DNA from: Pelagibius sp. CAU 1746
Lineage (GTDB): Bacteria; Pseudomonadota; Alphaproteobacteria; Kiloniellales; Kiloniellaceae
Direction of reading: 5' to 3'
Length of the DNA: 64,000 nt
Assembly: GCF_039839785.1 (NCBI RefSeq)
Contig: NZ_JBDOQT010000001.1
Span: forward strand, 1,488,001 to 1,552,000
Below are positions 26,289 to 52,976 of the stretch, one piece after another (within the stretch, counting starts at the first letter, position 1; the number at the start of each line of letters is the position of its first letter). A program made the position numbers and the translations under genes. Under the pieces are notes generated by a model. It had not been told where the DNA came from, ran no database searches, and saw nothing but the letters and a program-made list of their open reading frames with translations.

Positions 26289-27179
26289 GTGAGTGCGACC
26301 TACTGTTTGTCCCTGAGCGTCCCTGCACAGACGTTGGACACCTTCGAGGCGATCTTCGAACCCCTGGACGGCGCCATCGTCACCGGCGCGCGCGACAGCG
26401 TCGGCATCGTGCCCTGGCAGCTCTACCTGGCCGAACGGCCGGAGGACGCCGAGGTCGAACGCCTGATCGCCATCGCCTGCGAAGTTGCGGATCTTGCGGA
26501 AACGCCCGCCTACAGCCTGGAGGCGTTGCCCGATATCGACTGGGTGGCGGAGAGCCAGAAGGCGCTGCCGCCGATCGCCGCCGGGCGCTTTCGCGTCCGC
26601 GGCTCCCACGTCACCGAGCCGGCGCCGCCGGGCGCCATCGACCTGTTGATCGACGCCAACGCCGCCTTCGGCACCGGACGCCACGAAACCACGCGCGGCT
26701 GCCTCCTGGCCCTGCAGGACATCGCCAAGAAGCGGCCGGTCGGCCGGCCGATCACCCGCATCCTCGACATGGGCTGCGGCTCCGGCGTGCTGGCCATGGC
26801 GGCGGCCAAGCTGTGGCCCTGCCGGGTGCTGGGCGTCGACAACGACGCGCCCTCCATCAGGGTCGCCCAGGAGAATCTCGAGGCCAATGGCGTCGCCGAC
26901 ACGGTGCATTTGTTGCTGGGCGACGGTTTCAAGGACGCGCGGGTGCGCCGCGAGGGACCCTACGAGCTGATCCTCGCCAACATCCTGGCCGAGCCGCTCT
27001 GCGCCATGGCCCGGGAGGTGACGCGCCACCTCGCCCCCGGCGGCACGGTGATCCTCTCCGGCCTCTTGATCTCCCAGGAGCGCCAGGTCACCGCCCGCTA
27101 CCGCGCCGCCGGCTTGGCGCTGGTGAAGCGCTATCGCCTGGGCGAGTGGTCGACGCTGGTGCTGGGCGGCGGCGTGTGA
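26289..27179 (+). CDS. prmA: ribosomal protein L11 methyltransferase PrmA
   Basis: A 296-residue SAM-dependent methyltransferase that trimethylates ribosomal protein L11. The N-terminal substrate-binding domain (about 1-110) is followed by the Rossmann domain with FGTGRHETTRGCL, LDMGCGSGVLAMAAAKL (about 158) and LILANILAEPL (about 232), all close to PrmA. The start is a GTG 33 bases after the helicase stop, so the two probably share a transcript. A GC-rich hairpin directly follows the stop codon. Confidence 0.9.
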   Translation: MSATYCLSLSVPAQTLDTFEAIFEPLDGAIVTGARDSVGIVPWQLYLAERPEDAEVERLIAIACEVADLAETPAYSLEALPDIDWVAESQKALPPIAAGRFRVRGSHVTEPAPPGAIDLLIDANAAFGTGRHETTRGCLLALQDIAKKRPVGRPITRILDMGCGSGVLAMAAAKLWPCRVLGVDNDAPSIRVAQENLEANGVADTVHLLLGDGFKDARVRREGPYELILANILAEPLCAMAREVTRHLAPGGTVILSGLLISQERQVTARYRAAGLALVKRYRLGEWSTLVLGGGV

Positions 27180-27186
27180 AATGACA

Positions 27187-27219
27187 CCGGCGGCGCTTCC
27201 GTCATGGAGGCGCCGCCGG
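27187..27219. repeat. GC-rich hairpin, copy 1
   Basis: A 14-base stem (CCGGCGGCGCTTCC with GGAGGCGCCGCCGG, one mismatch) and loop gtcat, starting 8 bases after the prmA stop. No T-run follows. It is either a U-poor terminator or an REP-like element. Confidence 0.6.
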
Positions 27220-27398
27220 CCGCCGCCTCTCGGCAGCTACGTCCTTCCGGTTTGGATTAAGCGGGGAGGACGATCTCGGGGCAGGAAGCTCTGCCGCTGT
27301 TGATTTGGGATGTTCCGCGGGGTTTTCCAGTCGCCTTTTGGCTGTTCCGGCGGAAGAAATTCTCAACTTTTCGTGTTGTGGCCGGAGCTGAGAAGCGA

Positions 27399-27429
27399 CG
27401 GCGGCGCCTCCTTCTTGGAAGCGCCGCCG
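27399..27429. repeat. GC-rich hairpin, copy 2 (inverted relative to copy 1)
   Basis: A 13-base stem (CGGCGGCGCCTCC with GGAAGCGCCGCCG, one mismatch) and loop ttctt. Its reverse complement matches copy 1 almost base for base outside the loop. It lies 117 bases past the stop of the minus-strand DUF1127 gene. Confidence 0.6.
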
Positions 27430-27546
27430 GGTGCCGCCGTCCTGGCGGCGGGAGCGGGATGGTCCTTGCGGGACCGCGCTCCGGTTCTCGTCCCGTGGCT
27501 AACCGTGTTCAGACGAGCTTTTCTTGCGGCTTCCCGGATGCCGGCC

Positions 27547-49047: not shown

Positions 49048-50168
49048 CACAGCGCCTCCCCGCCGACGCGCCGCCGCGTCAGCGCCAGCAGCATGCCCAT
49101 GCCCAGGGCCAGCGCCATCAGCGAGGAGCCGCCGTAGCTTAGGAAGGGCAGGGTCATGCCCTTGGTCGGCATGAGGTGCAGGGTGGAGGCCATGTTGATG
49201 AAGGCCTGCAGGCCGAACTGCACCAGCAGGCCGCTGGCCGCCAGCAGCACGAAGAAGGAGTTCTCGCCCATCAGCCGCGCGAAGCCGCGCAGCACCACGA
49301 AGGCGAAGAGCCCGAGGATGATGAGGCAGGCGATGAGGCCCATTTCCTCGCCGGCCACGGCGAAGATGAAATCGGAGTGGGCGTCGGGCAGCTGCGCCTT
49401 GACCGTGCCCTCACCGGGGCCGCGCCCCAGCAGGCCGCCGTTCACGAAGGCCTCCAGCGAGCGGTTGATCTGGTAGCGGTCGCCGGCGGCGGGATCGAGG
49501 AAGGAGTTGATGCGCTCGGTCACGTGCGGCAGAGCGAAGTAGGCGGCGACGATGCCGCCGGCACCGAACACCGCCAGGCCGGCGATCCAGGCCAGCGGCA
49601 GGCCGGCCAGGAAAAGCTGGGCGCCCCAGATGGCGCTCAGCAGCACCGCCTGGCCCAGGTCCGGCTGCAGCAGCAGCAGGGAGACCATCGTCAGCCACAG
49701 GCCGATGGCGATCTTGACACCGGGCACGCCGCTTTCCTCGCGCTCCAGCGAGAACAGCCAGGCGGACACCACGGCGAAGCAGGGCTTGGCGAACTCCGAA
49801 GGCTGCAGTGAGAAGCCGCCGAGGCTGATCCAGCGGGTGGCGCCCTTGATCTCCGCGCCGGCCACCAGGGTCAGGCCCAGTAGTGCGATGGAGCCCAGCA
49901 AGCCGAGGCAGGCGATGCGCCGCACCCAGCGCGGGGTGGCCAGCGACATGGCGATCAGCAGCGCCGCGGCGAGCGGCAGCAGCACGATCTGACGGCTGGC
50001 GAGCTGGAAGGACTGCAGGCCGATGCGCTCGGCCGCGGCCGGGGAGGCGGCCAGCATCAGCACGGCGCCGAAGCCCATGAGGGCGATAAGCGACAGCAGA
50101 GTCCAGCGGTCGACGGTCCACCACCAGCGCCCCAGCAGGGAGGTATCCGTGCGCGCGAAGCTGCTCAT
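49047..50168 (-). CDS. ftsW: peptidoglycan polymerase FtsW (SEDS)
   Basis: A 373-residue SEDS-family protein with about ten helices that polymerises glycan strands at the septum together with FtsI. Family motifs: GATRWISLGGFSLQPSEFAK (the usual KGARRW-like stretch), LLLQPDLGQAVLLSAIW with the functional Asp, YQINRSLEAFVNGGLLGRGPGEG, LPDAHSDFIFAVAGEEMGLI and the final LPTKGMTLPFLSYGGSS-like segment. The start ATG overlaps the murD stop (ATGA). FtsW rather than RodA is supported by the dcw location. Confidence 0.95.
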   Translation of the reverse strand: MSSFARTDTSLLGRWWWTVDRWTLLSLIALMGFGAVLMLAASPAAAERIGLQSFQLASRQIVLLPLAAALLIAMSLATPRWVRRIACLGLLGSIALLGLTLVAGAEIKGATRWISLGGFSLQPSEFAKPCFAVVSAWLFSLEREESGVPGVKIAIGLWLTMVSLLLLQPDLGQAVLLSAIWGAQLFLAGLPLAWIAGLAVFGAGGIVAAYFALPHVTERINSFLDPAAGDRYQINRSLEAFVNGGLLGRGPGEGTVKAQLPDAHSDFIFAVAGEEMGLIACLIILGLFAFVVLRGFARLMGENSFFVLLAASGLLVQFGLQAFINMASTLHLMPTKGMTLPFLSYGGSSLMALALGMGMLLALTRRRVGGEAL

Positions 50169-51607
50169 GCCGCACCTTCCGGGCTCTGGGCGGGTGACGG
50201 GGTGGGCTTCAGGGCGGGCACGGCGATCTCGCCGCGCTCGCCGGGCAGGGCCTCGACGGCGGCGGTGAAGGCGTCGCCGCGCAGCTCGAAGTTGGCGAAC
50301 TGATCGAAAGAAGCGCAGGCCGGCGACAGCAGCACGACGCTGCCCGGGAGGCGGGAGGCGGCGTCGGCGGCCTCTGTCACGGCCTGCGCAATGGTGCCGG
50401 ACAGGGAAACCGGCACGGTTCCTTCGAGTACCTTGGCGAAATCCTCGGCGGCCTCGCCGATCAGGAAGGCCCGGGCGATGCGCGGGAAGAAGGGTTCCAG
50501 GCCCTCGAGACCGGTCTCCTTGGCGCGCCCGCCGGCGATCCACAGAATCTTGTCGTAGCAGGCCAGCGCCTTGGCGGCGGCGTCGGCGTTGGTCGCCTTG
50601 GAATCGTTGACGTAGGGCACGCCGTCGATCACCGCGACGATCTGCTGTCGGTGCTTCAGGCCCGGGAAGCTGCGCAGGCAGGCGGCGATGACCGGCGTCT
50701 CGACGCCGATCGCCTTGCAGGCGGCATAGGCCGCCGCGGCGTTCTGGCCGTTGTGGCTGCCGGGCAGGCTGGGGATATCGGTCAGATCCATGACCGGCGT
50801 GCGCGCACCCTCGGTATCGTCGATCAGTACGCCGTTCTGGGTGTAGACGCCGCCGGGCACCAGGCGTTCGCCGGAGATGCCGATCACGTTCTGCTCGCCT
50901 GCGGCTTTCAGTTCGCTGTAGATCTTCGAGCAGGTCTCGTCATCGACGCCGACGATGGCGCTGCGCGGCCTGGTCTGGCGGTGGAATATCTGGCGCTTGG
51001 CCTTGACGTAGCCCTCGAAGCCGCCGTGACGGTCCAGATGGTCGGGCGTGATGTTCAGCAGTACCGCCACGTCGAAGGTGATGGAGAGCGTCAGCTCCAG
51101 CTGATAGGAGGACATCTCCAGCACGTAGATGCCGTCGTTGTAGAGCGCTTCCAGGGTCAGCGCCGGGGTGCCCAGGTTGCCGCCCACGGCGGTCTGGCGC
51201 CCGGCGAGCTCCAGGATATGGCCGATCAGCGCCGTGGTGGTCGACTTGCCGTTGGTGCCGGTGATGCCGATGTAGCGGGCATCGCGCTGGGCGCGGGCCA
51301 GCAGCTCGATGTCGCCGATGATTTCCACGTTGTGTTTCTTAGCTTCCGCGACGATGGCGTGCGGCTGCGGGAAGCTGTGCGGGATACCCGGCGAGAGGAT
51401 CAGGCTGGTCGGCTCTTGCCAGTTCACCTGGTTCAGGTCGACCAGCGGCACCCCGGCCTCGCGCGCCTTGGCGCGGGCGTCCTCGTTGTCGTCCCAGGCC
51501 CAGACCTCCGCCCCGGCGGCCTGCAGCGCCCGCGCCGCGGCCAGCCCGGACTTGCCGAGGCCGAGAACGGCCACGGGCAAACCGGCGAAGAAGCTGAGGT
51601 CGATCAC
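50165..51607 (-). CDS. murD: UDP-N-acetylmuramoylalanine--D-glutamate ligase MurD
   Basis: A 480-residue Mur ligase adding D-Glu. It has an N-terminal Rossmann domain (VAVLGLGKSGLAAARALQAAGAEVWAWDDNE), the ATP site GITGTNGKSTTTALIGH, LEMSSYQLE, NITPDHLDRHG and NDSKATNADAAAKAL. I favour the GTG at 51607 because AGGAGG (51618-51623) lies 10 bases upstream; an ATG at 51643 would add 12 residues and has no ribosome-binding site. The AGGAGG and the alternative start sit inside a large inverted repeat, so translation of murD may depend on RNA folding. Confidence 0.92.
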   Translation of the reverse strand: MIDLSFFAGLPVAVLGLGKSGLAAARALQAAGAEVWAWDDNEDARAKAREAGVPLVDLNQVNWQEPTSLILSPGIPHSFPQPHAIVAEAKKHNVEIIGDIELLARAQRDARYIGITGTNGKSTTTALIGHILELAGRQTAVGGNLGTPALTLEALYNDGIYVLEMSSYQLELTLSITFDVAVLLNITPDHLDRHGGFEGYVKAKRQIFHRQTRPRSAIVGVDDETCSKIYSELKAAGEQNVIGISGERLVPGGVYTQNGVLIDDTEGARTPVMDLTDIPSLPGSHNGQNAAAAYAACKAIGVETPVIAACLRSFPGLKHRQQIVAVIDGVPYVNDSKATNADAAAKALACYDKILWIAGGRAKETGLEGLEPFFPRIARAFLIGEAAEDFAKVLEGTVPVSLSGTIAQAVTEAADAASRLPGSVVLLSPACASFDQFANFELRGDAFTAAVEALPGERGEIAVPALKPTPSPAQSPEGAA

Positions 51608-51613
51608 GGGACT

Positions 51614-51879
51614 AGTGCCTCCTATCAGGGTTAGGAGCGTCATGAGACGGCCGGGGCCGTCCCGTGGTTAGGAGCGCTGGCGCAGGCGATGTGGTGCATC
51701 GGCGAGCCGGCGCGACGACATCCACGGGCCGGTCCCGGCCGCCCGCAGGGTCGATTTTCGATCCGCACCCGGGGCGTCCCCGCGTTTGCCCGATGCACCA
51801 CATCGCGCTGCACGCGGCTCCTGCCGGGTGCGATCGAAAAGTCGATCTCATGATGTTCCTAACCCTGATAGGGGGCACT
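51614..51879. repeat. 266-base inverted duplication filling the mraY-murD gap
   Basis: Outer arms 51614-51647 and 51846-51879 are complementary at 31 of 34 bases, all three differences being transitions. Inner arms 51686-51702 and 51790-51806 (GCGATGTGGTGCATCGG) match perfectly over 17 bases. The spacers between outer and inner arms are 38 and 39 bases, so the element is symmetric about position 51746. It ends 6 bases before the murD GTG and starts 8 bases after the mraY stop on the transcribed strand. The AGGAGG of murD lies in the outer stem. A further TCGAT/ATCGA-rich repeat lies in the interior. Confidence 0.9.
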
Positions 51880-51887
51880 TGCGTTCC

Positions 51888-52976
51888 TTATCTGAGTTTG
51901 AGCGTTGCAAGGCCGGCGAGGGCCAGGATGGAGGCGATGATCCAGAAGCGAATCACGATGGTCGGCTCGGCCCAGCCCTTCTTCTCGAAGTGGTGGTGCA
52001 GCGGCGCCATGCGGAAGACGCGCTTGCCGGTCATCTTGAAGGAGGCGACCTGGACGATGACGGAGACCGTCTCCAGGACGAAAAGACCGCCGATGATGGC
52101 CAGCACCAGCTCGTGCTTGGTGACCACGGCGATGGAGCCCAGTGCGCCGCCGCAGGACAGCGAGCCGGTATCGCCCATGAAGACCATGGCCGGCGGCGCG
52201 TTGAACCACAGGAAGCCGAGACTGGCGCCCACCAGGGCGCCGCAGAAGACCGCCAGCTCGCCGGTGCCGGGCACGTAGTGCACCTGCAGGTACTCGGCGA
52301 AGAAGGAGTTGCCGACCAGGTAGGAGATCAGCGCGAAGCAGCTGGCCGCGATCATCACCGGCACGATGGCCAGGCCGTCCAGGCCGTCGGTCAGGTTGAC
52401 CGCGTTGGAGGCGCCGACCATGACGAAGACCGCGAAGGGCACGAACATGATGCCCAGGTTGACCAGCAGGCTCTTGAAGAAGGGCACGGCCAGGTGCGTG
52501 TCCATCTCCGGCGGCGCGATGTTGGAGATCCACAGGGCGACCAGGGTGGAGATGATCACCTGGATCAGCAGTTTCAGGCGGCCGGGCAGGCCGTCGCTGG
52601 AGCGCTTGGTGAGCTTCAGGTAGTCGTCGACGAAGCCGACCGCGCCGAAGCCGGTGGTCACGAAGAGCACGCACCAGACGTAGCGGTTGGTCAGGTCCGC
52701 CCACAGCAGGGTGGAGATGGTCAGCGCGATGAGAATGAGGAAGCCGCCCATGGTCGGCGTCCCCTTCTTGGTCAGCAGGTGGCCTTCCGGTCCGTCCTCG
52801 CGGATCGGCTGGCCTTCGCCCTGCTTGAAGCGCAGCCAGGCGATGACGCGCGGCCCCAGCAGGAAGCAGATGGCCAGCGCCGTGATCACCGCGCCGCCGC
52901 TGCGGAAGGTCAGGTAGCGGAAGAGATTGAAGATCTGGACGTCTTCGGAAAGGGGGACGAGCAGGTTATAGAGCAT
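51888..52976 (-). CDS. mraY: phospho-MurNAc-pentapeptide transferase MraY
   Basis: A 362-residue, ten-helix enzyme that moves phospho-MurNAc-pentapeptide to undecaprenyl phosphate, making lipid I. Motifs: [30 protein letters not shown] with the catalytic Asp pair, [30 protein letters not shown] and [25 protein letters not shown]. The ATG lies 13 bases after the murF stop. The following intergenic stretch is the inverted duplication. Confidence 0.97.

Follow-up and report, generated by a model that had tools for sequence, protein, structure and literature searches.

RUP of Streptococcus pneumoniae is an IS630-linked MITE that is short, carries no transposase, and has terminal inverted repeats and a TA insertion site (PMC2229807). 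Elements of the IS630 family duplicate TA (PMC2170065). NEMIS/Correia (PMC2229807) and Bru-RS (PMC2267715) are palindromic intergenic repeats, and the CIR repeats of Caulobacter and Brucella are alphaproteobacterial, intergenic and drawn with two arms (PMC2229807). The 235-bp Chunjie MITE of Geobacter uraniireducens lies in an operon whose structure is undisturbed (PMC10969869). We describe here a repeat between mraY and murD of Pelagibius sp. CAU 1746 that is probably a non-autonomous, MITE-like element, recently inserted, with one end co-opted as the ribosome-binding site of murD.

Gene calls were made by codon-position GC and checked against Pfam and NCBIfam. In the window (the whole 64-kb stretch of DNA analysed), the outer arms at 51614-51647 and 51846-51879 are identical at 31/34 positions and form the top inverted repeat of their kind, and five locally shuffled windows reached a maximum of 23-26 of 34 arm matches. 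The inverted repeat that an earlier, sequence-only reading placed between these genes is real, and further copies of it exist in the genome. Its 266-base extent was correctly positioned, but the repeat proper measures 264 bp and is flanked by TA and TT (Table 1). The coordinates also bear out the inner match of 17 nt and the 38/39 spacing given in the same reading. With its flanks, the copy reads CTA[GTGCC...GGCAC]TT, in which one TA duplication is intact and the other has apparently decayed. The mraY stop codon lies 9 nt upstream of the element. No long ORF confined to the 264-bp copy appears in the open reading frame list, and the copy appears to have no transposase of its own, as is typical of a MITE.

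Table 1. Features of the mraY-murD gap and the adjoining genes (positions in the window)
Feature	Position	Strand	Basis or remark
MITE-like element, 264 bp	51615..51878	- (mraY-murD transcript strand)	Terminal repeats that pair, and the boundaries of further copies
Target-duplication TA, murD side, C-TA-G context	51613..51614	.	Sequence and end scan
TT (+ strand), mraY side, read as decayed second TA	51879..51880	.	Decay inferred
Terminal stem, 5' half, mraY side	51846..51878	-	Columns 1-33 of alignment A1
Arm A, apical motif GCAGCGCGATG...CATCGGGCAA	51751..51845	-	A1 columns 34-128; motif also in other elements
Inter-arm mini-hairpin, 3 bp	51742..51750	-	A1 columns 129-137
Arm B, apical motif inversely oriented	51648..51741	-	A1 columns 138-231
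Terminal stem, 3' half, murD side	51615..51647	-	A1 columns 232-264
AGGAGG, proposed murD Shine-Dalgarno, within terminal repeat	51618..51623	-	10 nt upstream of GTG
GTG, likely murD start	51605..51607	-	Same as GTG of relatives G007 and G004
Alternative in-frame ATG within element, +12 residues	51641..51643	-	ORF 50165-51643
murD	50165..51607	-	TIGR01087, E 4.1e-110
mraY	51888..52976	-	TIGR00445, E 8.1e-126

That the repeat is an assembly artefact or a chance palindrome is extremely improbable. Several contigs in other genomes do stop inside such elements, but the murD copy lies well within a 3.56-Mb contig, its boundaries match among copies in several genomes, and no shuffle exceeded 26/34; for the family as a whole, artefact and chance are refuted by the matching copies. 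Elsewhere in the window, the runner-up distinct inverted repeat (27187-27430; 29/34, DNA fold z -5.6) lies directly 3' of a methyltransferase-like ORF (26289-27179) and was found in 2/8 genus genomes (G007 at 76%). It was considered as a relative of the murD element and is unrelated to it.

A genome-wide search, which the earlier reading had proposed, returned four full copies: the window copy at mraY-murD, one immediately upstream of a response-regulator gene, one at the secD-secF junction, and one, termed locus X, which has an OmpA-family gene on one side and on the other a gene matching nothing in Pfam or NCBIfam. About ten copies occur in G026, and the element is thus multi-copy, as expected of a MITE. 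An end scan with GTACCCACTATCAGGATTAGG found the paired element at 21/28 loci. Paired copies in the genus measure 264 bp in 9/10 cases and 300 bp in the other, and the eleven outside the genus measure 263-300 bp, apart from one of 370 bp with nested inserts. In this 370-bp element, L100 (G037:C612), two extra hairpins are nested in arm B. TA is present on both sides in 15/21 paired copies. In 12 of these 15 a G follows the TA on the right, and the TA on the left is preceded by C (8 copies), T (6) or G (1). Terminal inverted repeats are accordingly accompanied by a target duplication, as in a MITE (the murD copy retaining one intact TA), and TA is duplicated at CTAG-like targets, as in an IS630-mobilised MITE. 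A preference for TA in CTAG is reportedly the subject of a 1991 title by Tenzen and Ohtsubo.

Allowing up to three mismatches, the terminal end was found in 6/8 genus genomes and in 10/61 genomes of the order, and reversed control patterns of it gave zero matches in the same search. An exact end scan of named genomes matched seven stretches, five of them in Pelagibius sp., Kiloniellaceae and Rhodospirillales MAGs (three MAGs); two single-end exact matches in unrelated phyla were taken as chance. At L035 1501-1521 (G007:C3:425019-425039), a solitary 15-base family end is followed by TAG without a partner end and is possibly a remnant. Copy L095 (G026:C11) ends after about 160 bp, where it is directly joined to the following permease gene, and was probably shortened by deletion. 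The element had no match in Rfam. A plasmid search gave no match with the GTAC element and, with the CCAA element, a single 29-nt match that was taken as chance.

We propose mobilisation by an IS630-type transposase. No DDE_3 transposase was found in this genome or in G004, G005 and G007, and none of five DDE_3 and 14 DUF4096 loci held an IS with GTACCCACT ends. No autonomous IS630 element was thus found to share its ends with the murD element, and for this reason membership in IS630 is put forward as a proposal only. The five DDE_3 loci likewise included no IS630-type locus with GTAC ends. At two of them, in related genomes, CTAG-GAGC ends lie about 1.1 kb apart (L104 938-2040, L106 1397-2465), a pattern seen solely in a search for 7-nt words and missed by the stricter end search. 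GAGC-type elements and these two IS630-type loci have their first four bases and target in common, and it is possible that L104 and L106 are the movers of GAGC-type elements.

The GTAC subfamily sits at codirectional gene junctions, namely mraY/murD, secD/secF, MlaE and an ABC gene, a cheZ-like and a MotB-plug gene (weak), phosphatidylserine decarboxylase and CDP-alcohol transferase, methylmalonyl-CoA mutase and MeaB, and several permease pairs. Both neighbours belong to a family at 15/16 independent codirectional GTAC loci; at X, one neighbour does not. According to the sequence-only reading, repeat-free relatives together with copies at random sites would indicate a passive mobile repeat. 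The relatives indeed lack the repeat at this junction and copies do lie elsewhere in the genome, but the other sites are mostly gene junctions and not random. Within the GTAC subfamily, the stop of the preceding gene and the start of the following one often adjoin the element. The target CTAG is the upstream gene's TAG stop at L095 (G026) 1-120, L024 1505-1515 and L003 1760-1770, and a CTAG target within a stop codon may partly account for the operon-junction sites.

Arm A comes first on the transcript at 15/16 codirectional GTAC loci, the exception being L081 (14/15, p 0.001, before L232 of G061 was added). Locus X was counted once for its five species here, and loci with convergent or divergent neighbours (L133, L134, L139, L144, L210) as well as contig-end copies with one neighbour (L136, L141, L142, L143) were left out. 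When loci were instead counted by the next gene downstream, adding L133 and the four copies at contig ends and omitting the G061 locus, the result was 17/20 (p 0.0026). In the second group, orientation was read from that group's own arm A, whose homology was judged via arm similarity, and pooling of both groups therefore presupposes that homology. No orientation bias was found in CCAA types (8/17, with L182 retained despite mis-set ends). GAGC types have the same orientation in 7/8 cases, of which two are probably one locus and the gene identities are unchecked, and among other-ended elements L160 and L204 have the opposite orientation and L202 the same.

The RNA of the murD strand is predicted to fold at -171.6 kcal/mol (z -9.8), with 0/200 dinucleotide shuffles as good, and the proposed folding check thus yielded a very stable structure. 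A single nested stem had been envisaged; the predicted order is instead terminal stem, arm A, mini-hairpin and arm B, so that the terminal stem surrounds two independent arms, and the former "inner arms" are really the apical motif, one per arm. In alignment A1 of nine genus copies, which has 105 pairs, 96.4% of cells are paired and 18 pairs changed on both sides. Two-sided cells number 35 versus 11.9 +/- 2.8 in shuffled alignments (0/500 reaching the real value), and slid controls gave at most 5. The number of further pair types was not unusual, being reached by 51/500 shuffles.

Pair losses were compared between strands for pairs predicted on both. In the genus set the departures comprised 9 G-U, 9 A-C and 22 of other kinds; the second set had 8, 16 and 10, respectively. 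As these losses have no transcript-strand bias, nothing indicates selection on the transcript strand, and the negative G-U versus A-C test tells against RNA-strand selection on the element. The three differences between the outer arms had been thought to keep the stem through G-U pairs in at least one strand. This holds on the opposite strand only, and all three are A-C on the murD transcript.

The repeat lengthens a gap that is short elsewhere. MurD searches gave a match in 41/41 genomes, the weak ones in G006 and G008 being of the strength that paralogues would give. Thirty mraY-murD loci were returned, with the mraY end readable in 28. From mraY stop to murD start, there are 280 nt here versus 7-36 nt, measured to the aligned MurD start, at the 27 other junctions, where the element was found in 0/27. 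Element-free sites in relatives are thus available for mraY-murD (27/27 other readable junctions) and for locus X (G002, G004 and G006), and the comparison of relatives that had been called for turned out in favour of insertion: a MITE-like element captured in the operon, one of several possibilities raised at the outset, agrees with the four copies, the TA flanks and the element-free junctions.

In the closest relative compared, G007 (93% MurD identity), the junction reads gagataa-GGAGTCCGTCGTCCC-GTG, and the corresponding stretch in this genome is GGAGGCACTAGTCCC-GTG. GGAG lies 15 nt upstream of GTG in both, and here it is element-derived. The family consensus at the position of AGGAGG is GTGGGT. 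In the murD copy, columns 258 and 262 changed along with their pairing partners, and column 259 went from G to A with its partner unchanged, which completed AGGAGG and left this position unpaired on the transcript. Predicted pairing with the anti-Shine-Dalgarno sequence is -12.3 kcal/mol for the murD copy, -9.2 for G007 and -6.8 for the end of the family consensus. The old Shine-Dalgarno remnant near mraY, predicted to pair at -6.5, is now separated from the murD start by about 275 nt. The longest branch (0.10) in the tree of copies is that of the murD copy. The sequence-only reading rightly put both AGGAGG and the in-frame ATG in the stem and saw that the repeat encloses the murD ribosome-binding site; it is the element itself that supplies this site. 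Judging from the sequence comparison, the mutated terminal repeat most likely became the murD ribosome-binding site. AGGAGG is presumably used in the cell, and the changes forming it, found in one lineage, may well have been selected.

A cis-acting RNA could alternatively couple murD to mraY, in that ribosomes finishing mraY would open the terminal stem and free the Shine-Dalgarno. AGGAGG lies within that stem, and stops and starts of the GTAC subfamily often abut the element, as such coupling would have it. AGGAGG is predicted to be mostly paired (mean openness 0.17), however, and with the initial 3-20 nt of the 5' terminal repeat forced open its openness ranges from 0.09 to 0.35 without a steady rise, which lends no support to the translational switch suggested earlier. 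Moreover, 9 nt separate the mraY stop from the element, G-U is not preferred on the transcript, and 27 other junctions do without the element. We consider coupling unlikely.

Locus X allows the fate of a fixed copy to be followed. It is occupied in 5/8 genus genomes; G002, G004 and G006 lack the element. All X copies fall in a single clade (100/99, midpoint root), which together with these absences makes one insertion with losses likeliest and repeated insertion a less likely alternative. Among 20 variable pairs, two have a Watson-Crick double change (13/2000 controls with random partners reach two) and 16 have lost their pairing in one or more of four species. These losses tell against compensatory upkeep at the fixed locus, and the family-wide covariation seems to originate in the mobile lineage. 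For five of the six pairings among four genomes, the element at X has diverged at 0.13-0.43 times the rate seen at 4-fold sites in the genes beside it, and the ratios of the closest pairs are 0.16 (CI 0.05-0.32) and 0.43 (CI 0.24-0.68). G003_X was included in the tree and left out of the variable-pair and divergence analyses. In this copy (L146 1502-2068), the element is split by 303 bp of inserted DNA that has inverted ends of its own, CTGTCCGGTTTAG.... We read the structure as kept in the mobile lineage and decaying after insertion, with perhaps some host constraint on sequence at X.

The variable pairs at X also bear on another reading, in which the repeat would serve RNase III processing or the stability of the long dcw mRNA. 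The long, very stable stems and the one-sided orientation at codirectional GTAC loci would suit such a role, and NEMIS repeats, by analogy, have been proposed as RNase III targets (PMC2229807). Pair losses without transcript-strand bias and the breakage of most variable pairs at locus X in some species argue against it, and we regard it as quite improbable. Both the switch and the RNase III readings are possible but unsupported.

DNA matches to the arms occur in 17/41 genomes and led to elements with different ends. By a search that favoured TA-flanked ends, 60 loci were fetched by arm match; the ends are alike at >=18/20 in 46, and 38 of these 46 have TA on both sides. The 38 TA-flanked elements have 14 different 8-nt starts, mostly of CCAA and GAGC types, and 34 measure 256-268 bp. 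In part, the arm motif that they have in common (approximately AGG..GCAGCGCGATG-loop-CATCGGGCAAGC..CRACG) follows from the way the set was built; the differing ends and constant length do not. CCAA-type ends read ATACC...GGTAT, which leaves the target duplication of these types undefined. The abstract fold [[][][]] was predicted for 31/57 complete elements (20 GTAC, 37 other) and 1/285 mononucleotide shuffles. Class-wide, 22/289 sampled genomes, including this one, match at E<=1e-3, and full-length matches are limited to this genome and G061 (another order; 81-83%). No description of these elements was found in the literature searched, most subscription papers being outside it. It is conceivable, though doubtful, that they make up an undescribed alphaproteobacterial superfamily in which the folded apical motif of the arms is conserved and the stems and terminal repeats are swapped. 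The arms, and not the ends, would in that case be what a transposase or host factor recognises, and the elements would be taken up repeatedly at operon junctions, in one orientation, as translation-initiation or expression-setting cassettes.

For the murD copy, we favour insertion followed by co-option, an explanation that draws on the observed copies, TA flanks, element-free sites, sequence changes and covariation. A 264-bp element would have entered the short mraY-murD spacer at a CTAG/TTAG-type target with duplication of TA, after the split from the closest relative compared, displacing the old Shine-Dalgarno remnant to its present distance. The murD-side terminal repeat would then have mutated from the weak GTGGGT to AGGAGG at the former spacing, so that the site from which murD is translated probably lies within the element. 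The palindrome would have been well paired during the mobile phase of the lineage and have begun to decay once inserted. Against this explanation stand the slow divergence at X, which a purely passive repeat leaves unexplained, the predicted pairing of most of AGGAGG, the second TA of the murD copy, which is not intact, and the failure to find a DDE_3 transposase in this genome, G004, G005 or G007 or an IS with GTACCCACT ends at the DDE_3 and DUF4096 loci.

The locus is a clear natural example: the ribosome-binding site of a gene for cell-wall synthesis appears to have been replaced by a mobile element with the spacing unchanged, and the element-free version of the site is known in close relatives. 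The wider group, with near-constant length and arm motif and unrelated ends, raises the questions of what holds the core together and whether a protein reads the folded arms.

Compared by description only, NEMIS/Correia and Bru-RS are about 100-155 bp versus 264 bp for the murD element. CIR resembles it, by description, as a two-armed alphaproteobacterial intergenic repeat; CIR, however, is about 110 bp, its ends form no stem and GANTC stands at the terminal loop, whereas the murD copy has 264 bp, a 33-column terminal stem and no GANTC. Chunjie is likewise, by description, a MITE inside an operon, and no statement that it supplies a ribosome-binding site was found in the passage on it in PMC10969869. 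RUP shares with the murD element its shortness, the lack of a transposase, the terminal inverted repeats and the TA site, but is 107 bp long, whereas the murD element has 264 bp, two internal arms and a partner IS that was not found. Among the known systems, the murD element is best filed as a variant of the IS630-type MITEs with a co-opted end.
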